Shown in pieces: positions 3,897 to 63,055 of a stretch of 64,000 nucleotides of DNA (position 1 is the stretch's first letter; the number at the start of each line of letters is the position of its first letter). The DNA is from Gordonia westfalica (GTDB lineage: Bacteria > Actinomycetota > Actinomycetes > Mycobacteriales > Mycobacteriaceae). The stretch covers positions 4,402,001 to 4,466,000 of the forward strand of contig NZ_FNLM01000034.1 of assembly GCF_900105725.1 (NCBI RefSeq). Direction: 5' to 3'. Under the pieces are notes generated by a model that saw only the letters and a program-made list of their open reading frames with translations, did not search any database and was not told where the DNA came from. A program made the translations under genes and the position numbers.

Positions 3897-3936
3897 TTTC
3901 CTTCCCGCTGATTGGATCCGATCAGCGGGAAGGAAA
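3897..3936. terminator. Bidirectional hairpin between convergent genes
   Basis: Two perfect 16-base arms (TTTCCTTCCCGCTGAT and its complement) flank an 8-base loop containing GGATCC. The hairpin sits between the end of the hsdR-like gene and the end of the convergent dehydratase gene. Terminal A and T runs on each arm give a U-tract for both transcripts, so it can act as a two-way terminator. Confidence 0.7.
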
Positions 3937-7694: not shown

Positions 7695-7781
7695 CGACCT
7701 CGAAATGGGGTCCTTCGTCACATGTTTGGACTAAACGAGACCCCGGACGTGTCAACGGCCGAAAAGTAGCGTAAACATGAA

Positions 7782-7802
7782 GACAGCTCCGGCAGAGCTG
7801 TC
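7782..7802 (+). promoter_or_regulatory. Stem-loop in the leader of the VanW gene
   Basis: GACAGCTC-CGGCA-GAGCTGTC forms an 8-bp perfect stem. A further GACAGCTC copy at about 7815-7822 could pair with the same right arm, so two exclusive structures are possible. The region from 7695 to 7908 holds no gene and must contain the promoter. No known riboswitch class was recognised. Confidence 0.3.
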
Positions 7803-7908
7803 AGACCCCCGACCCGACAGCTCAGCCGGAGCACCTACATTTCTGGGGTATGAGTTCTGCGGCCACCACCACGACTGGCCCAGGTAGTCAGCCGTGATGG
7901 ATGGAGTT

Positions 7909-9658: not shown

Positions 9659-10438
9659 GTGGATATCAATGGAGCTAGTGCAATCGTCACGGGTGGCGCG
9701 TCGGGGATCGGCGCAGCTGCGGCTCGCCAGCTGGCGGCCAAGGGTGCGAAGGTCATCGTCGCCGACCTGAACGCAGACAAGGGTGAGGAACTCGCCAAGG
9801 AGATCGGCGGGCAGTTCGTCGCCGTCGACGTGACCTCGACCGAGCAGATCGAGGCTGCCGTCAACGCGGCCACCGAGCTCGGCCCGCTGCGCGCGCTGGT
9901 CAACTCGGCCGGCATCGGCTGGGCCCAGCGCACCATCGGCCGCGACGGCGAATTCGGATCGGCACACAACCTGGACGCCTACAAGAAGGTCATCGCGATC
10001 AACCTGATCGGCACCTTCGACTGCATCCGTCTCGCCGCCACCGCGATGAGCCGCAACGAGCCGCTCGACGCACACGGTGAGCGCGGCGCGATCGTCAACA
10101 TGGCCAGTGTCGCCGCCTTCGACGGCCAGATCGGCCAGGCGTCGTACTCGTCGTCCAAGGGCGGCGTCGTCGGCATGACCCTGCCGGTCGCGCGTGACCT
10201 GGCCGCGGTCGGCATCCGCGTCAACACCATCGCCCCCGGCCTGATCGACACCCCGATCTACGGCGAGGGCGAGGCCGCCGAGGCCTTTAAGGCGAAGCTG
10301 GGCGAGTCGGTCCTGTTCCCGCATCGTCTGGGCGCCCCCGACGAGCTGGCCTCGATGGTCGTCGAGCTGGTCACCAACAGCTACATGAACGCCGAGGTGA
10401 TCCGCGTCGACGGCGGCATCCGGATGCCTCCGAAGTAG
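9659..10438 (+). CDS. SDR-family 3-hydroxyacyl-CoA dehydrogenase-like protein
   Basis: This is a classical short-chain dehydrogenase of 259 residues. The NAD-binding motif TGGASGIG is at about 12-19, NSAG follows, the catalytic pair is in YSSSK, and the end is [10 protein letters not shown]. The overall pattern resembles type II 3-hydroxyacyl-CoA dehydrogenases of fatty-acid and branched-chain catabolism. GTG 9659 starts the SDR fold directly; an upstream ATG at 9605 would add an improbable leader. Its place inside the fadA2-fadE5 interval supports a role in acyl-CoA oxidation. Confidence 0.85.
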
Positions 10439-10459
10439 TCCGTAAGACCACCACTTCTC

Positions 10460-10503
10460 GCCGAACCCACTGCCTCTCACCGGCGGTGGGTTCGGCCTTT
10501 TCC
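10460..10503. terminator. Terminator between convergent SDR and ADH genes
   Basis: GCCGAACCCAC and GTGGGTTCGGC form an 11-bp perfect stem with a 15-base loop, followed by CTTTTCC. It lies between convergent stops. The AACCCAC/GTGGGTT core recalls the larger palindromic repeats in this window, but it is shorter and single. Confidence 0.75.
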
Positions 10504-10518
10504 GGTGGGTTGTGTCGG

Positions 10519-11682: not shown

Positions 11683-11752
11683 CAGACCCACCCCTTTTCG
11701 GCAAACCCAGCCCCTTGTGACGGGGTGATTCTGCGGAAAAATGGTGGGTTTG
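11683..11752. repeat. Nested palindromic repeat, copy A (degenerate)
   Basis: CAGACCCACC followed by TTTTCGGCAAACCCA, and downstream GCGGAAAAATGGTGGGTTTG, form the outer and inner arms of the same palindrome seen at 12381, 30972 and 62986, with several mismatches. This copy lies between divergent genes rather than at a gene end. Its right arm contains an ATG (11741) in frame with the LppU-like protein. Confidence 0.7.
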
Positions 11753-11761
11753 CAGGCGTCT

Positions 11762-12376
11762 GTGAGTTGTCCGCCGTACCCGGGACAACCGCCGGCGGGC
11801 CAGTATCCGCAGGGTCCCTGGGGACCGCCGCCGCCGAAGAAGAGTCACAAGGGGCTCTGGATCACGCTCGGCGTCCTCGCGTTCCTCGTCGTGGGCGCGG
11901 TGATCGCCGGCGGGGTGGCACTGGTCGGGAACTCCGACGGTGCGATCGTCTACAACGCCGACGACGTCGACGTGGGGCAGTGTCTCGAGGTGACGTCAGG
12001 GTCGGACTCGCTGAAGGCCGAGAAGATCTCGTGTGACACCACGGACTTCCACTACGTCGTCGCCGGCAAGTCGTTCACCCGATTCGGTTGCGGGCTCGGC
12101 TATTCGACGTTCTGGTTCGCCGGCAACGAGAAGGAGGTCCTGTGTCTCGCCCAGGCCGGGAAGTGCTACCACCTGCCCGAATCGTCGGGCGCGGACACGA
12201 CGTCGCTTGCTCAGGCCCGTGAGATCGACTGCGGCCAACCGGTTCCGGCCGGCGAGGCGACCAACTTCAAGGTCGAGACCAAGGAGTCCCGGGAGCCGGA
12301 TTGCCCCGAGGGGCAAGGTGAGTACTACGTGGCCCAACCTAAGCCGACCGGATACTGCGTCTCGCTGCTCGAGTGA
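11762..12376 (+). CDS. LppU-like membrane-anchored exported protein
   Basis: About 204 residues: a Pro/Gly-rich cytoplasmic tail (CPPYPGQPP), one transmembrane helix (LWITLGVLAFLVVGAVIAGG), and an extracytoplasmic domain with many cysteines, starting VDVGQCLEV. This resembles LppU-type septum/envelope proteins of actinobacteria, whose biochemical role is unknown. The GTG at 11762 avoids residues derived from repeat copy A. The ATG at 11741 inside the repeat would add MVGLQAS. It is followed by repeat copy B, which probably ends its transcript. Confidence 0.7.
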   Translation: MSCPPYPGQPPAGQYPQGPWGPPPPKKSHKGLWITLGVLAFLVVGAVIAGGVALVGNSDGAIVYNADDVDVGQCLEVTSGSDSLKAEKISCDTTDFHYVVAGKSFTRFGCGLGYSTFWFAGNEKEVLCLAQAGKCYHLPESSGADTTSLAQAREIDCGQPVPAGEATNFKVETKESREPDCPEGQGEYYVAQPKPTGYCVSLLE

Positions 12377-12380
12377 CCGC

Positions 12381-12458
12381 TCCGCAAACCCACCACAAAT
12401 GGGCAAACCCACCACCTCGCAAGGTGGTGGGTTTGCCGATTAAGGGTGGGTTTGCGGA
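12381..12458. repeat. Nested palindromic repeat, copy B
   Basis: Outer 14-base arms (TCCGCAAACCCACC and its complement) enclose inner 16-base arms (GGCAAACCCACCACCT and its complement) around CGCA, with 6-7 base spacers between. It sits 4 bases after one stop codon and 8 bases before the convergent fadE5 stop, so it can serve as a two-way terminator. Confidence 0.9.
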
Positions 12459-12466
12459 TCCTCAGA

Positions 12467-14302
12467 TCAGAAGGCCGCTACGTCGAGCTCCATGATGTCG
12501 TTGTCGACGTTCTCGACGGTGACGCGCACGGCGGTGAGGAGCGGCAGCATGTTCTTGGCGAAGAAGGCTGCCACGCCGACCTTGCCCTCGTAGAACGCCT
12601 TGTCGGCGTCGGAGGCACCGTTGTCGAGTGCGGCGAGGGCGATCTCGGCCTGGCGCAGCAGCAGCCAGCCGATGAGCAGGTCGCCGACGGCCATCAGGAA
12701 GCGGACCGAACCGAGGCCCACCTTGTAGAGCTCGGTCGAGTTCTCCTGTGCGGCCATCAGGCTGCCGGTCAGGGAGGCGGCCATGGCCTGGACGTCGTCG
12801 AGGGCGGTCTTCAGCAGAGCGCGCTCGGCCTTGAGGCGACCGTTGCCCGCCTCGGAGTCGATGAAGCTCTGGATCTGTCCGGCGACGTGTGCCAGTGCCT
12901 GACCCTTGTCGCGGATGATCTTGCGGAAGAAGAAGTCCTGCGCCTGGATGGCGGTGGTGCCCTCGTAGAGCGAGTCGATCTTCGAGTCGCGGATGTACTG
13001 CTCGATCGGGTAGTCCTGCAGGAATCCCGAACCGCCGAGGGTCTGCAGCGACTCGTGGCCGAGGGTGCCGTAGGCGCGCTCGGAGCCGACGCCCTTGACG
13101 ATGGGCAGCAGCAGATCGTTGACGCGAGCGGCCATCTCGGCGTCGGCGCCGGAGACGATCTTCGCGGCGGCGGCGTCCTGGTGCGACGCGGTGTAGAGGT
13201 AGATCGCGCGCAGACCCTCGGCATAGGCCTTCTGGGTCATGAGCGAACGACGCACATCCGGGTGGTGGGTGATCGACACGCGCGGCGCGGCCTTGTCGGT
13301 CATCTGGGTCATGTCGGCACCCTGGATGCGCTCCTTGGCGTACTCGAGCGCGTTCAGGTAACCGGTCGACAGGGTAGAGATGGCCTTGGTGCCCACCATC
13401 ATTCGAGCGTGCTCGATGACCTCGAACATCTGCGCGATGCCCTGGTGGACCTCGCCGACGAGCCAGCCCTTGGCCGGGATGCCGTGCTGGCCGAAGGTGA
13501 CCTCACACGTGGCCGACGCCTTGATGCCCATCTTGTGCTCGACGTTGGTGACGAAGGCGCCGTTGCGCTCGCCGAGTTCGCCGGTCTCGAAGTCGAAGTG
13601 GAACTTCGGCACGAAGAACAGCGACAGACCCTTGGTGCCCGGTCCGGCGCCCTCGGGGCGGGCGAGCACGAGGTGGAAGATGTTCTCGGTCATGTCCTGG
13701 TCGGCCGAGGTGATGAAGCGCTTCACGCCGTCGATGTGCCAGGAGCCGTCCTCCTGCTGGGTGGCCTTGGTGCGGCCGGCGCCCACGTCCGAACCGGCGT
13801 CGGGCTCGGTCAGCACCATGGTGGCGCCCCAGCCGCGCTCGGCGCAGATGGTGGCCCACTTCTTCTGCTCGTCGGTGCCGTTGTTGTAGAAGATCTCGGA
13901 GAATCCGGCGCCGGCGGCGTACATGAACACCGGCGGGTTGGCGCCGAGGATCATCTCGCCGATCGCCCAGTACAGCGAACGCGGGGCGGGGAGGCCGCCG
14001 AGCTCCTCGTGGATGCCGATCTTGTCCCAGCCGCCTTCGACGAGGGCGTTGTAGGACTTCTTGAAGGATTCGGGGATGGTGACGCTGTGGGTCTCGGGAT
14101 CGAAGACCGGCGGGTTGCGGTCGGCGTCGACGAAGGATTCTGCGATGGGGCCCTCGGCCAGCGCCTTGACCTCGCGGAGCATGTCCACGGCGGTCTCGTG
14201 GTCGAGGTCGCCGAAGTCGCCCGACTCCAGCACCTTGTCGAGCTCGAACAGCTCGAACAGGTTGAACTGCAGGTCGCGCATGTTGCTCTTGTAATGGCCC
14301 AT
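12467..14302 (-). CDS. fadE5: Acyl-CoA dehydrogenase FadE5
   Basis: This is an FAD acyl-CoA dehydrogenase of 611 residues, the same length as M. tuberculosis FadE5 and recognisably very similar along its length, with landmarks [24 protein letters not shown] and [13 protein letters not shown]. It oxidises acyl-CoA to 2-enoyl-CoA; FadE5 is known for broad chain-length use. The ATG at 14302 has AAGGA upstream, and residues from here match the family start (GHYKSN). Synteny with fabG4/fadA2 is broken only by the four genes between. Confidence 0.95.
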
Positions 14303-14428
14303 GGTGAATTCCTTCTCTGGTGTGGCCGTATGCGTGATGACGGTGTTGTCTGCCAGGTCCCGGTCCGACCCCATTCGGCTGGAGTGGGTACCGGCCGGTC
14401 CTGGTGGAGTTGTCTCGGTTCGAGCTAA

Positions 14429-18934: not shown

Positions 18935-18946
18935 GCGGACGACGGA

Positions 18947-18981
18947 GCGGGGGCGGTCCCGGAGTCCGGAACCGCCCCCGC
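18947..18981. terminator. GC-rich hairpin between convergent genes
   Basis: GCGGGGGCGGT and ACCGCCCCCGC pair, with an internal CCGGA/TCCGG stem, giving a long hairpin with two bulges. It lies between the DUF305 stop and the convergent DUF4185 stop. There is no T-run, so termination strength is uncertain. Confidence 0.6.
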
Positions 18982-18999
18982 CTCGTCGGAAATCCTGCG

Positions 19000-29818: not shown

Positions 29819-30829
29819 ATGGCAGAACTCAGGCTCGGATACAAGGCGTCGGCGGAGCAGTTCGATCCGCGCGAGTTGGTGGAGATCGCGGTCGCAGCCG
29901 AAGAGCACGGACTGGACTCGGTCGCGGTCAGCGACCACTTCCAGCCGTGGCGGCACAACGGCGGCCACGCCCCCTTCTCGCTCGCGTGGATGGCGGCCGT
30001 CGGTGAGCGCACCAAGCGCGTCCAGATCGGCACGTCGGTCATGACCCCCACCTTCCGTTACAACCCGGCGGTCATCGCCCAGGCCTTCGCGTCGATGGGA
30101 TGCATGTACCCGGGTCGCATCATGCTCGGCGTCGGCACCGGCGAGGCGCTCAACGAGTACGCCACCGGCTTCCAGGGCGAGTGGCCCGAGTTCAAGGAGC
30201 GCTTCGCCCGCCTGCGCGAGTCGATCAAGCTCATGCGTGAACTGTGGACCGGTGAAGAGGTCAACTTCGACGGCGAGTACTACCACACGCAGGGTGCGTA
30301 CATGTATGACGTTCCGGAACAACCGATCCCGGTGTACGTCGCCGCCGGTGGACCGGTCGTCGCCCGGTATGCGGGACGCGCCGGCGACGGCTTCATCTGC
30401 ACCTCGGGCAAGGGTGCCGAGCTCTACACCGAGAAGCTTCTCCCTGCGGTGAAAGAAGGTGCGGAGAAGGCCGAACGCGACTTCGACGCCATCGACAAGA
30501 TGATCGAGATCAAGATCTCCTACGATCCCGATCCCGAACTGGCGCTGGAGAACACACGATTCTGGGCGCCCCTGTCGCTGACCCCGGAGCAGAAGCACAG
30601 CGTCAACAGCTCCACCGAGATGGAACGTCTCGCCGACGAACTGCCCATCGAGCAGGTCGCCAAGCGCTGGATCGTCGCCTCCGACCCCGACGAGGCCGTC
30701 GAGAAGGTCAAGTTCTACACCGACGCCGGACTGAACCACCTCGTCTTCCATGCGCCCGGCCACGATCAGCGTCGTTTCCTGGAGAACTTCCAGCGCGACC
30801 TGGAACCGCGCCTGCGCAAGCTCGGCTAG
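29819..30829 (+). CDS. fgd1: F420-dependent glucose-6-phosphate dehydrogenase Fgd1
   Basis: This 336-residue luciferase-like TIM-barrel enzyme oxidises glucose-6-phosphate to 6-phosphogluconolactone and reduces coenzyme F420, supplying F420H2 to deazaflavin reductases. Length and sequence match M. tuberculosis Fgd1 throughout. The F420/active-site segment DHFQPW holds Asp39, His40 and Trp44, and GTGEALNE holds the catalytic Glu near 109. In M. tuberculosis it is followed by pta and ackA; here about 4.9 kb of other genes intervene. The stop codon CTAG is shared with a convergent small frame. Confidence 0.97.
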
Positions 30830-30945
30830 TTGTACTGACCCGGGACGTCGGGTACGTCCTTCGGCGAGTCAGCGTGGAAACAGGTCGGCGCCGATCCGCA
30901 GTTCGGTGGGCACCAACAGAAGACCGACCGGCAGCGCCCGATCAT
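30826..30945 (-). CDS. Possible 39-residue Cys-rich protein
   Basis: A convergent small frame encodes [17 protein letters not shown] and a further Cys in [10 protein letters not shown], five Cys within about 20 residues, ending QYN. Its TAG overlaps the fgd1 TAG through the palindrome CTAG. The Cys spacing looks protein-like (metal or disulfide). No convincing ribosome site was seen, and the high-GC code can produce such frames by chance. Confidence 0.25.
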
Positions 30946-30971
30946 CAAGCTGACCGCCGAATAGTGACAGC

Positions 30972-31033
30972 CCCACCCTTTTTGGGCAAACCCACCACCC
31001 CCGGGGGTGGTGGGTTTGCCCAAAAAGGGTGGG
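30972..31033. repeat. Nested palindromic repeat, copy C (perfect 62-bp palindrome)
   Basis: Arms 30972-31002 and 31003-31033 are exact reverse complements with no loop, centred on CCCCCGGGGG. Each arm contains CCCACCCTTTTTGGG and CAAACCCACCACC. It is the best-preserved member of the four-copy family. It lies after fgd1 and could terminate transcription in either direction. The stretch 31034-31284 holds no supported gene. Confidence 0.97.
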
Positions 31034-31261
31034 TTTGCCGGACGTCAGGCCGCGACGAAGGCCTGATCACCGAACAATTCGGCATGTGGACCGCAGCGCC
31101 ACCGACAGTTCCGCAGGGCACCGTGTGATGAGTGTTCCGCGGAACACTCATGCCGGGCGGGCGCAACGCTGTTGACCCGACCCTGGCTCCGCAGCACCAG
31201 CGAATTGCAGCGCTACCCGGTACCCAACCTGGCGGGTCAATACAGCTAGTACAGCCAGTCC

Positions 31262-49506: not shown

Positions 49507-49557
49507 GGCGACCAGGCTAGCCCCGCGCGCAATGGCCGGGCGTAGGGTGGACCGCGA

Positions 49558-49648
49558 GAACACACGGGAGCCCGGGCAGGCGGGCTGAGAGTGCGGGCCC
49601 CTCCGCTGACCGTCGAACCTGATCCGGGTCATTCCGGCGAAGGAAGGT
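49558..49648 (+). ncRNA. TPP riboswitch (THI element)
   Basis: The conserved thi-box sequences are present in order: a 5' stem with ACGGGAGCCCG, the CTGAGAG loop at 49585-49591, and ACCTGATCCGGGTCATTCCGG with GAAGGAAGG near 49617-49647. It ends about 10 bases before the thiO GTG, so it most likely hides the ribosome site when thiamine pyrophosphate is bound. Confidence 0.96.
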
Positions 49649-49656
49649 GATCTGGC

Positions 49657-50717
49657 GTGAGCCATGTTTCGAAGCAGCCCGACCGAGCGCTGACCGTCGT
49701 CGGCGGTGGCGTCATCGGGCTGACCTGTGCGCTCGTCGCTGCCGATGCCGGCTGGCAGGTCCTGGTCGTCGACGCCGGTCACGACGGGCGGGCGTCGTGG
49801 GTGGCGGGCGGCATGCTCGGTTCGCTCGGCGAGGGTCATCCGGGCGAGGAGGCCGCGCTGGCCGCGTCGGTGGAGTCGGTGCGGCGCTGGCCGGGGCTGG
49901 TGAAACGGCTCGATGATCCTGCGATCGTGACGGCCACCGATTCCCTGTTCGTCGCCGCTTCGGCCGCCGACGCCGAGTACCTCCGTCACCTCGCGGACTT
50001 CGTCTGGGCCAACCAGCCGAGGACCGACGCGACGCTCAGCACGGTCACCGGTCGCGAGATCCGTTCTCTGGAGCCGTCGTTGAGTTCGCGGCTGGTCGGT
50101 GGTTACCGGGCGGTCGGGGAGTGGTCGATCGACAACAGGCGCCTGCTGGGCACCTTGCGCCGTGCCGGGGCCGCTGCCGGGGTGCGGTACACCGATGCCC
50201 GGGCGCGCGGCCTGGCCGATGTCCACGAACTCGCCGGCCTGCGCGATCAGATCCTTCTCGCTGCCGGGCTCGGCACCGCCGAACTGCTTCCCGACGTGCC
50301 GCTGCATGCGGCGAAGGGAGAGATCCTGCGACTGCGGCGCACGCGGTGGTCGGTACCGACCCCGGGGCACGTGGTCCGTGCCCGCCTCCATGGCCGAGCC
50401 GTGTATCTGGTGCCGCGGGAGGACGGGATCGTGGTCGGCGCAACGCAATACGAGGCCGGCGATTTCGGTGACCGCATTCCGCAGGCGGGTGGGGTCGCGG
50501 ATCTGCTCGCCGACGCTATCGAGGTCATGCCGGGTCTGCGCACCTACGAACTCATCGAAGCGGGTGCCGGACTCCGCCCGTGCACCGCTGACGGATTGCC
50601 GATCGTGAAACGGGTCGACGACCGCACGCTGGTCGCGACCGGGCACGGCCGCAACGGCATCGTTCTCGCCCCGGGCACCGCGGACAGGGTGCTGGGGATT
50701 CTGGAAGGAGTATCGGA

Positions 50718-62985: not shown

Positions 62986-63055
62986 CAAACCCACCCTGTT
63001 TCCGTGGACGCGCCCCCGTCGTGGCGGGTGGATTCACGCAGAAAGGGTGGGTGTG
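62986..63055. repeat. Nested palindromic repeat, copy D (degenerate)
   Basis: CAAACCCACCCTGTTTCCGTG and GTGGATTCACGCAGAAAGGG then TGGGTGTG form the outer and inner arms of the repeat family, with mismatches. It lies between convergent MFS and TetR genes. The last codons and stop of the TetR gene are inside the right half. Confidence 0.75.

Follow-up and report, generated by a model that had tools for sequence, protein, structure and literature searches.

The window analysed here, i.e., the whole 64,000-nucleotide stretch of Gordonia westfalica DNA, contains several palindromic elements of one sequence family. Four of these (copies A to D, at 11683-11752, 12381-12458, 30972-31033 and 62986-63055) had been proposed in the original prediction, and a check of the sequence located all of them where it had placed them. 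The four copies are real, but a fifth, degenerate copy (copy E) brings the window total to five. The elements and genes needed for the description are as follows.

10443-10512, no strand assigned: copy E, degenerate, between convergent gene ends at 10438 (+) and 10519 (-); its inner part, 10460-10496, is well paired.
11683-11752, no strand assigned: copy A, degenerate, immediately 5' of the LppU-like gene; a divergent alcohol dehydrogenase gene starts 108 bp away.
11762-12376, plus strand: gene matching the LppU/SCO3897 domain, with copy A on one side and copy B on the other (its start is our choice; the gene caller gave 11741).
12385-12454, no strand assigned: copy B, between the convergent ends of genes 11762-12376 (+) and 12467-14374 (-); pairing reaches 12381-12458.
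12467-14374, minus strand: acyl-CoA dehydrogenase gene, its 3' end towards copy B; the anchor for the orthologous site in other genomes.
30830-31245, no strand assigned: MITE-like segment of 416 bp carrying copy C, with CTAG flanks at 30826-30829 and 31246-31249.
30968-31037, no strand assigned: copy C, a 70-bp element with a perfect 62-bp core at 30972-31033; the left outermost letters have decayed.
62986-63055, no strand assigned: copy D, degenerate, between the end of an MFS transporter gene (+) and the end of a TetR-type gene (-).

Copy C is, as had been claimed, an exact 62-bp palindrome without a loop, with 31-nt arms that are 100% complementary. The natural unit, however, is 69-70 bp rather than 62, and the full span of copy C is that listed above. 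The arms of copy B are 37 nt long and 89% complementary, while copies A and D are degenerate, again as described before; the arms of D measure 30 nt, are 73% complementary, and the TetR-type gene on the minus strand overlaps this copy by about 22 bp. Folding z-scores were -7.3 for copy C, -10.7 for B, -3.3 for A and -2.6 for D. Copy E has a weak 25-bit model match and a palindrome score of 12.5, and similar sequence is seen by eye at the same place in Gordonia amicalis (G019) and Gordonia namibiensis (G002). In G. amicalis the counterparts of copies A and B are 145 bp apart, without a gene of the LppU/SCO3897 domain between them. Allowing at most one mismatch, the window has 14 occurrences of the short box CAAACCCACC, where 2.4 would be expected, and none of 100 shuffles reached 14.

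Other structured sequences are also present in the window. At the gathering score Rfam gave two matches in the window, a TPP riboswitch and an F6 sRNA (49554-49663 and 7780-7837), neither of them on a palindrome copy. Strong palindromes of unrelated sequence lie between other convergent gene ends, at 3897-3936 and 18940-18988, thus several hairpin types coexist in the window.

With a covariance model built from 20 copies, the 6.4-Mb genome was found to have 44 full-length places, all of them hit on both strands, and a further two that are weak. The original prediction had advised a search for relatives elsewhere in the genome and the genus, and regarded a set of four copies without any relatives as fatal to the idea of a family; with 44 places, and relatives in the genus, this is a real dispersed family. 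Thirty-seven copies are on contig C34 and seven on C36, with none in the remaining 0.79 Mb (chance 0.003 under an even spread). Copy numbers are lower bounds, as the candidates scored were limited to 49-150 per genome. The consensus arm of this family, family A, reads CAAACCCACCCTTTTTCGGCAAACCCACCACCC-nnnn followed by its mirror image, and the element ends are CAAACC/GGTTTG. A 20-letter half arm, allowing up to three mismatches, had 74 matches, present in 42 of the 44 copies, and its reversed control pattern had none in the genome. As all 74 matches fall inside the 44 copies, the half-arm search revealed no lone arm and no longer element with the same ends in this genome.

The arms have an internal design of their own. 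In G. westfalica each arm carries the box CAAACCCACC twice, 19 nt apart, and the first 12 letters of the arm resemble the 12 letters starting 19 further in for all nine sets compared (G. westfalica, G. amicalis, G. namibiensis, Williamsia, four other Gordonia and a second family, B, described below). Identity at offset 19 was 0.66-0.78 and was the maximum in 9/9 sets, compared to at most 0.53 at the other offsets from 13 to 28; pooled, the likeness was 8.66 of 12 letters against 3.75 after shuffling, the highest of 200 shuffles being 3.95. Pairing of the arms is not the cause of this likeness, since each outer box pairs with the other outer box and each inner box with the other inner one. Covariation of the arms is seen as well, with 15 pairs changed on both sides compared to 7.3 in shuffles, a value reached by 0/500, though relatedness can inflate such a count. 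In every set the 5' arm is richer in C (0.34-0.48) than in G (0.09-0.21).

The association with gene ends, which had been noted for the window, extends to the genome: in 36/44 copies one or more stops face the element from within 40 bp (two in twenty of them), and eight copies have none. Where a stop lies within 40 bp its median distance from the element is 9 bp, and across three genomes the middle half of the distances is 4-12 nt. Facing stops within 40 bp were equally a feature of G. amicalis (28/31 examined copies) and G. namibiensis (20/22). By arrangement, 27 of the 44 G. westfalica copies are convergent, 14 tandem and two divergent, with one incomplete; one copy counted as tandem (C34:2585657) sits within a called reading frame. 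Convergent neighbours make up 20-24% of the window, whether neighbour pairs, gaps or intergenic bases are counted, and against this null, taken from the window's 50 neighbour pairs with family copies among them, 27 of 43 classed copies gives P between 2e-9 and 7e-8. Gene calls came from a home-made caller that was trained on the window and misses small genes. Copy A does lie between divergent starts, as had been pointed out, and is one of only two divergent cases among the 43.

Single genes are in some places bracketed by two copies, i.e., 11762-12376 in the window, L088:2114-3055, L092:2309-3541 and L096:2080-2457; two of the four have only domain-level or sub-cutoff family matches, one is a DUF and one has no match. 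In Williamsia faeni (L133) a 45% relative of the gene bracketed by C34:2377626 and C34:2378659 (L088) is bracketed as well, in the Williamsia spelling.

The graded decay among the copies had been read as the mark of a mobile or amplified REP/MITE-like element moved by a transposase. For copy C there is a part of this to retain. Its 416-bp host segment has inverted ends in which 24/30 letters are equal, CTAG counted, compared to at most 19/30 in random window pairs. Partial relatives of copy C with its surroundings are found at C34:172844 (222 bp, 94%) and C36:685264 (434 bp, 82%), each around another G. westfalica copy; at C36:685264 a similar segment end is visible by eye (the automatic comparison being out of register), and C34:172844 has one end only. 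In G. amicalis the homologous gene end adjoins an element. Since the host segment has inverted ends of its own, with CTAG flanking either side, copy C most likely travelled as a passenger: a transposon unrelated to it would have taken it up together with part of a gene end and carried it along.

For the family as a whole the mobile reading, in which a REP/MITE-type element, mobile now or formerly, was spread by an unrecognised transposase and retained at harmless gene ends, is improbable. It would account for the many copies with a shared consensus, the lineage-specific families and the patchy presence, and two similar sites per end recall the binding ends of transposases. Against it, the genome has no match to the REP-associated transposase Y1_Tnp (PF01797), a model that matches 5/14 control genomes, and 0/44 copies have a flanking direct repeat of at least 4 bp (1.4 expected), although very old target duplications could have decayed. 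The REP tags GTAG or CGTC are absent, by eye, from the ends of this 69-70-bp unit. With no Y1 transposase, no target duplication and no REP tag, the family is not a REP/RAYT system. Nor was a lone arm, a longer relative or an autonomous element with the same ends seen in the genome, all 74 half-arm matches being within the 44 copies. A phage, plasmid or viral origin was set aside as well, with no match in those collections at the sensitivities used (one 76-nt query or one pattern each). Copy C, in turn, seems to have moved only as a passenger. Finally, many sites are common to several species, and what had looked like graded decay is instead sequence variety in a family with old positions.

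Evidence for these old positions comes from other genomes. The family A model (R1) matched in 26/59 Gordonia genomes searched. Its rows in two of 42 non-Gordonia genomes (two in G047, E 4e-9; one in G051, E 3e-5) were read as other hairpins. A search for the exact outer-box pattern in one genome per GTDB species returned 66 stretches, with carriers in Gordonia amicalis, alkanivorans, paraffinivorans, namibiensis and 'Campus' and in five Williamsia. Six of the 66 were set aside, two in other MAGs being chance-like and four of one 'Rhodobacteraceae' MAG belonging to a different repeat. The latter MAG (L136, L151, L154, L159) holds a palindromic repeat AAGGTGGGTTCAAACCCACCTT on several contigs, in pairs about 68 nt apart. 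A site was taken as orthologous if one flank gene matched with an identity of at least 60%, and site pairs were counted, so that some sites enter twice. By this measure 24/31 copies of G. amicalis and 20/22 of G. namibiensis lie at gene ends orthologous to a G. westfalica site (31/33 places were used in the former, one having no flank and one being weak, and 22/24 in the latter, two weak ones being omitted). Conversely, 25/44 G. westfalica sites have an orthologous copy in G. amicalis and 19/44 in G. namibiensis, and two Williamsia stretches share the site of C34:3741541.

While positions are shared, the spelling of the copies follows the site only weakly. The orthologous copy was the best sequence match in just 6/27, 6/24 and 3/20 site pairs, and mean identity was 0.80, 0.81 and 0.77 at orthologous sites against 0.78, 0.77 and 0.75 for other pairs. 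Some sites do keep their own letters, e.g., the identity of copy B with its counterpart is 0.96 in G. amicalis as well as in G. namibiensis. Outer boxes are 0.91-0.94 identical at orthologous sites compared to 0.50 for the adjoining 12 bp (ungapped; flanks from 59 site pairs, element classes from 40). The Williamsia copies were picked by exact outer boxes, which makes their outer-box conservation true by construction. That the outer boxes are kept where the flanks have diverged means that inheritance alone does not account for the spelling, which is under selection or homogenised. Between inner arms the match is poorer than between outer arms (0.80-0.90 vs 0.91-0.93). In each of three genomes four copies (of 43, 23 and 16 classed) have different spacer classes in their two arms, which suggests exchange between copies.

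Both boxes of an arm share a spelling that differs between species. In genome G016 both read CAGAACCACC, and in G005 both read CAAACCC followed by C/A, G/A and CA. A second family, B, has the box GTTCTTCCCCC and a length of about 72 bp with the same 19-nt double-box offset, and is found in G025, G062, G082 and others; its model (R2) matched in 27/101 genomes, all of them Gordonia. The family B set of 24 contains one place twice (L293, L311). Three genomes (G010, G016 and G076) have at least six match rows for each family, and four (G036, G062, G065 and G082) have family B at the copy B gene end. Two stretches depart from the regular form: a family B element of G062 (L297, 990-1110) has three 19-nt units in its left arm, and L319 (G065) combines a B-type outer box with an A-type inner box (CAAACCC). 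The pattern looks like concerted evolution of a non-coding element, 70 bp long, whose places are conserved.

The sites behind the acyl-CoA dehydrogenase gene (copy B) and behind an AdoHcy hydrolase gene were read in 30 genomes each, and family A is present in five genomes at each. Of the 50 sites without it, 40 (21/25 and 19/25) have a palindrome score of at least 13 behind the stop, by eye mostly of unrelated sequence; the ten without a strong palindrome include a decayed family A remnant (G018) and a family B element (G036). In the window such scores were reached by 0/400 stretches inside genes, 0/51 before starts and 7/51 behind stops. With other hairpins at the same gene ends, the element appears interchangeable with them, and this is the main argument for a terminator role. 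It also fits a set of ordinary terminators with neither shared ancestry nor shared recognition, which the original prediction named as the outcome that would defeat it, and which we consider barely credible: the 74 half-arm matches in 42/44 copies against none for the reversed control, the boxes with their 19-nt offset and the family itself all contradict it.

Termination is likeliest as the function, judged from sequence and position. Each arm of the 69-72-bp palindrome would present its short C-rich box twice, 19 nt apart, with the other arm mirrored, so that a transcript arriving from either side would meet box, box, loop, box' and box' soon past its stop codon. Where convergent genes end, the element most likely stops transcription, or insulates it, from both sides; its hairpin would be very stable, with a U-tract that is short or absent, akin to the disputed 'I-shaped' terminators of mycobacteria. 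Its positions would be largely inherited vertically and its boxes kept by selection at sequence level, while the box spellings of one genome would drift together into species dialects, probably through ectopic exchange and/or a recognising factor that changes with them. To this reading, i.e., bidirectional gene-end terminators or insulators with selected boxes homogenised into lineage dialects, we give slightly better than an even chance. The form described for I-shaped terminators, a stable hairpin without a U-tail at most 50 bp from the stop, is found here (36/44 copies within 40 bp; six copies folded). What speaks against a simple terminator is that no U-tract of useful length follows the elements, family A ending in GGGUUUG and then mostly CGG and family B in GGGGGAAGAAC; in an intrinsic-terminator scan of copies E, A, B and C the only match was, on one strand, the inner stem of copy B. 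The poorer match between inner arms, the eight copies with no facing stop within 40 bp, the two divergent copies, the one within a reading frame and the ten sites lacking a strong palindrome also count against the terminator reading. Readings as G-quadruplexes or Rho-loading sites were dropped after inspection by eye.

If the hairpin acts in the transcript, G-U pairs might be favoured over A-C mismatches on the sense strand. In 28 tandem copies pooled from three genomes there were 31 G-U and 43 A-C mismatches, no excess (P = 0.20). As there is no sign here of selection on a transcript hairpin, a DNA-binding factor is a live rival. The four boxes would then be putative sites of a lineage-specific protein, the palindrome reflecting the symmetry of the sites rather than RNA folding, and the bound protein would block or insulate converging RNA polymerases or organise the chromosome. 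Besides the absence of a wobble bias, this would explain why outer and inner boxes change together between species though pairing needs no such match (CAAACCCACC twice in G. westfalica, G000; CAGAACCACC twice in G016), why the offset of 19 recurs in two families with different boxes, and why the outer box is kept where flanks differ. We nevertheless regard it as unlikely, given that different hairpins occupy these gene ends in other species and that the arms covary beyond shuffles; the likeness of the boxes could, moreover, come from exchange between 19-nt units, a three-unit arm being present in G062. Rather doubtful is a role as protector of mRNA 3' ends, whereby transcripts would end further on (e.g., by Rho) and be trimmed back to the hairpin, which would keep exonucleases off either mRNA. 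The high stability of the hairpins and their place a few nt past stops would suit it, as would the Rho dominance described for Mycobacterium tuberculosis in the part of that paper drawn on here (PMC12288462), yet the sense strand has no wobble bias and protection alone leaves the double box at 19 nt unexplained.

Returning to gene-end termination or insulation, a more specific proposal is that the elements form an undescribed Gordonia/Williamsia class with four boxes, 19 apart in each arm, read by a co-evolving lineage-specific factor. In its two families and dialects, box and putative reader would change together while positions stay. This we put forward tentatively, at about one chance in four. 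There is dispute over how GC-rich actinobacteria terminate transcription where U-tracts are missing, and the family offers tens of alike, conserved, mostly convergent sites per genome, together with natural variants and other hairpins in sister species. With such sites and variants, direct tests become feasible of termination, of a factor that may recognise the boxes and of how its dialect drifts.

No description of this family was found among the papers listed in searches of the open-licence PubMed Central literature, those listed for its letter strings being unrelated by title, and this real gene-end family, with its 19-nt double-box design and lineage dialects, is apparently undescribed there. 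Several known systems resemble it in part. Integron attC sites resemble the present elements in lying behind genes as an imperfect palindrome with two pairs of boxes; judged by eye, the core boxes of attC disagree with those found here, no sign of a cassette array was noted in the viewed stretches, and this candidate was rejected. Inverted pairs of DNA uptake sequences (DUS) serve as terminators. The DUS of Neisseriaceae are short boxes with species dialects, in the part of the source used (PMC3630211), and this likeness is shared. However, DUS occur in thousands, with single copies in genes, compared to tens of elements here (44 places in G. westfalica, with no single arm in that genome) and four boxes per element. 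REP sequences are, according to the portion of the literature drawn on, palindromes dispersed outside genes, with enrichment downstream of genes and in the gaps of convergent pairs, and have a 20-40-bp unit and GTAG or CGTC at one end (PMC3733652). The present elements share this dispersal and placement with REP/BIME and their RAYTs, but are 69-72 bp long, lack GTAG/CGTC and any Y1 match in the genome, and have the 19-nt double box and many shared positions. Prokaryotic stem-loops and bidirectional terminators likewise prefer convergent intergenic space and the first 50 bp behind stops; the sections of that study relied on describe no double-box or dialect design, and Gordonia is absent from the portion of its species table consulted (PMC1590033). 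Closest in form are the I-shaped mycobacterial terminators, hairpins without a U-tail within 50 bp of the stop codon (PMC12288462), which, as far as the portion of that paper cited here goes, are a shape rather than a family of related sequences in which a box is repeated and dialects occur.
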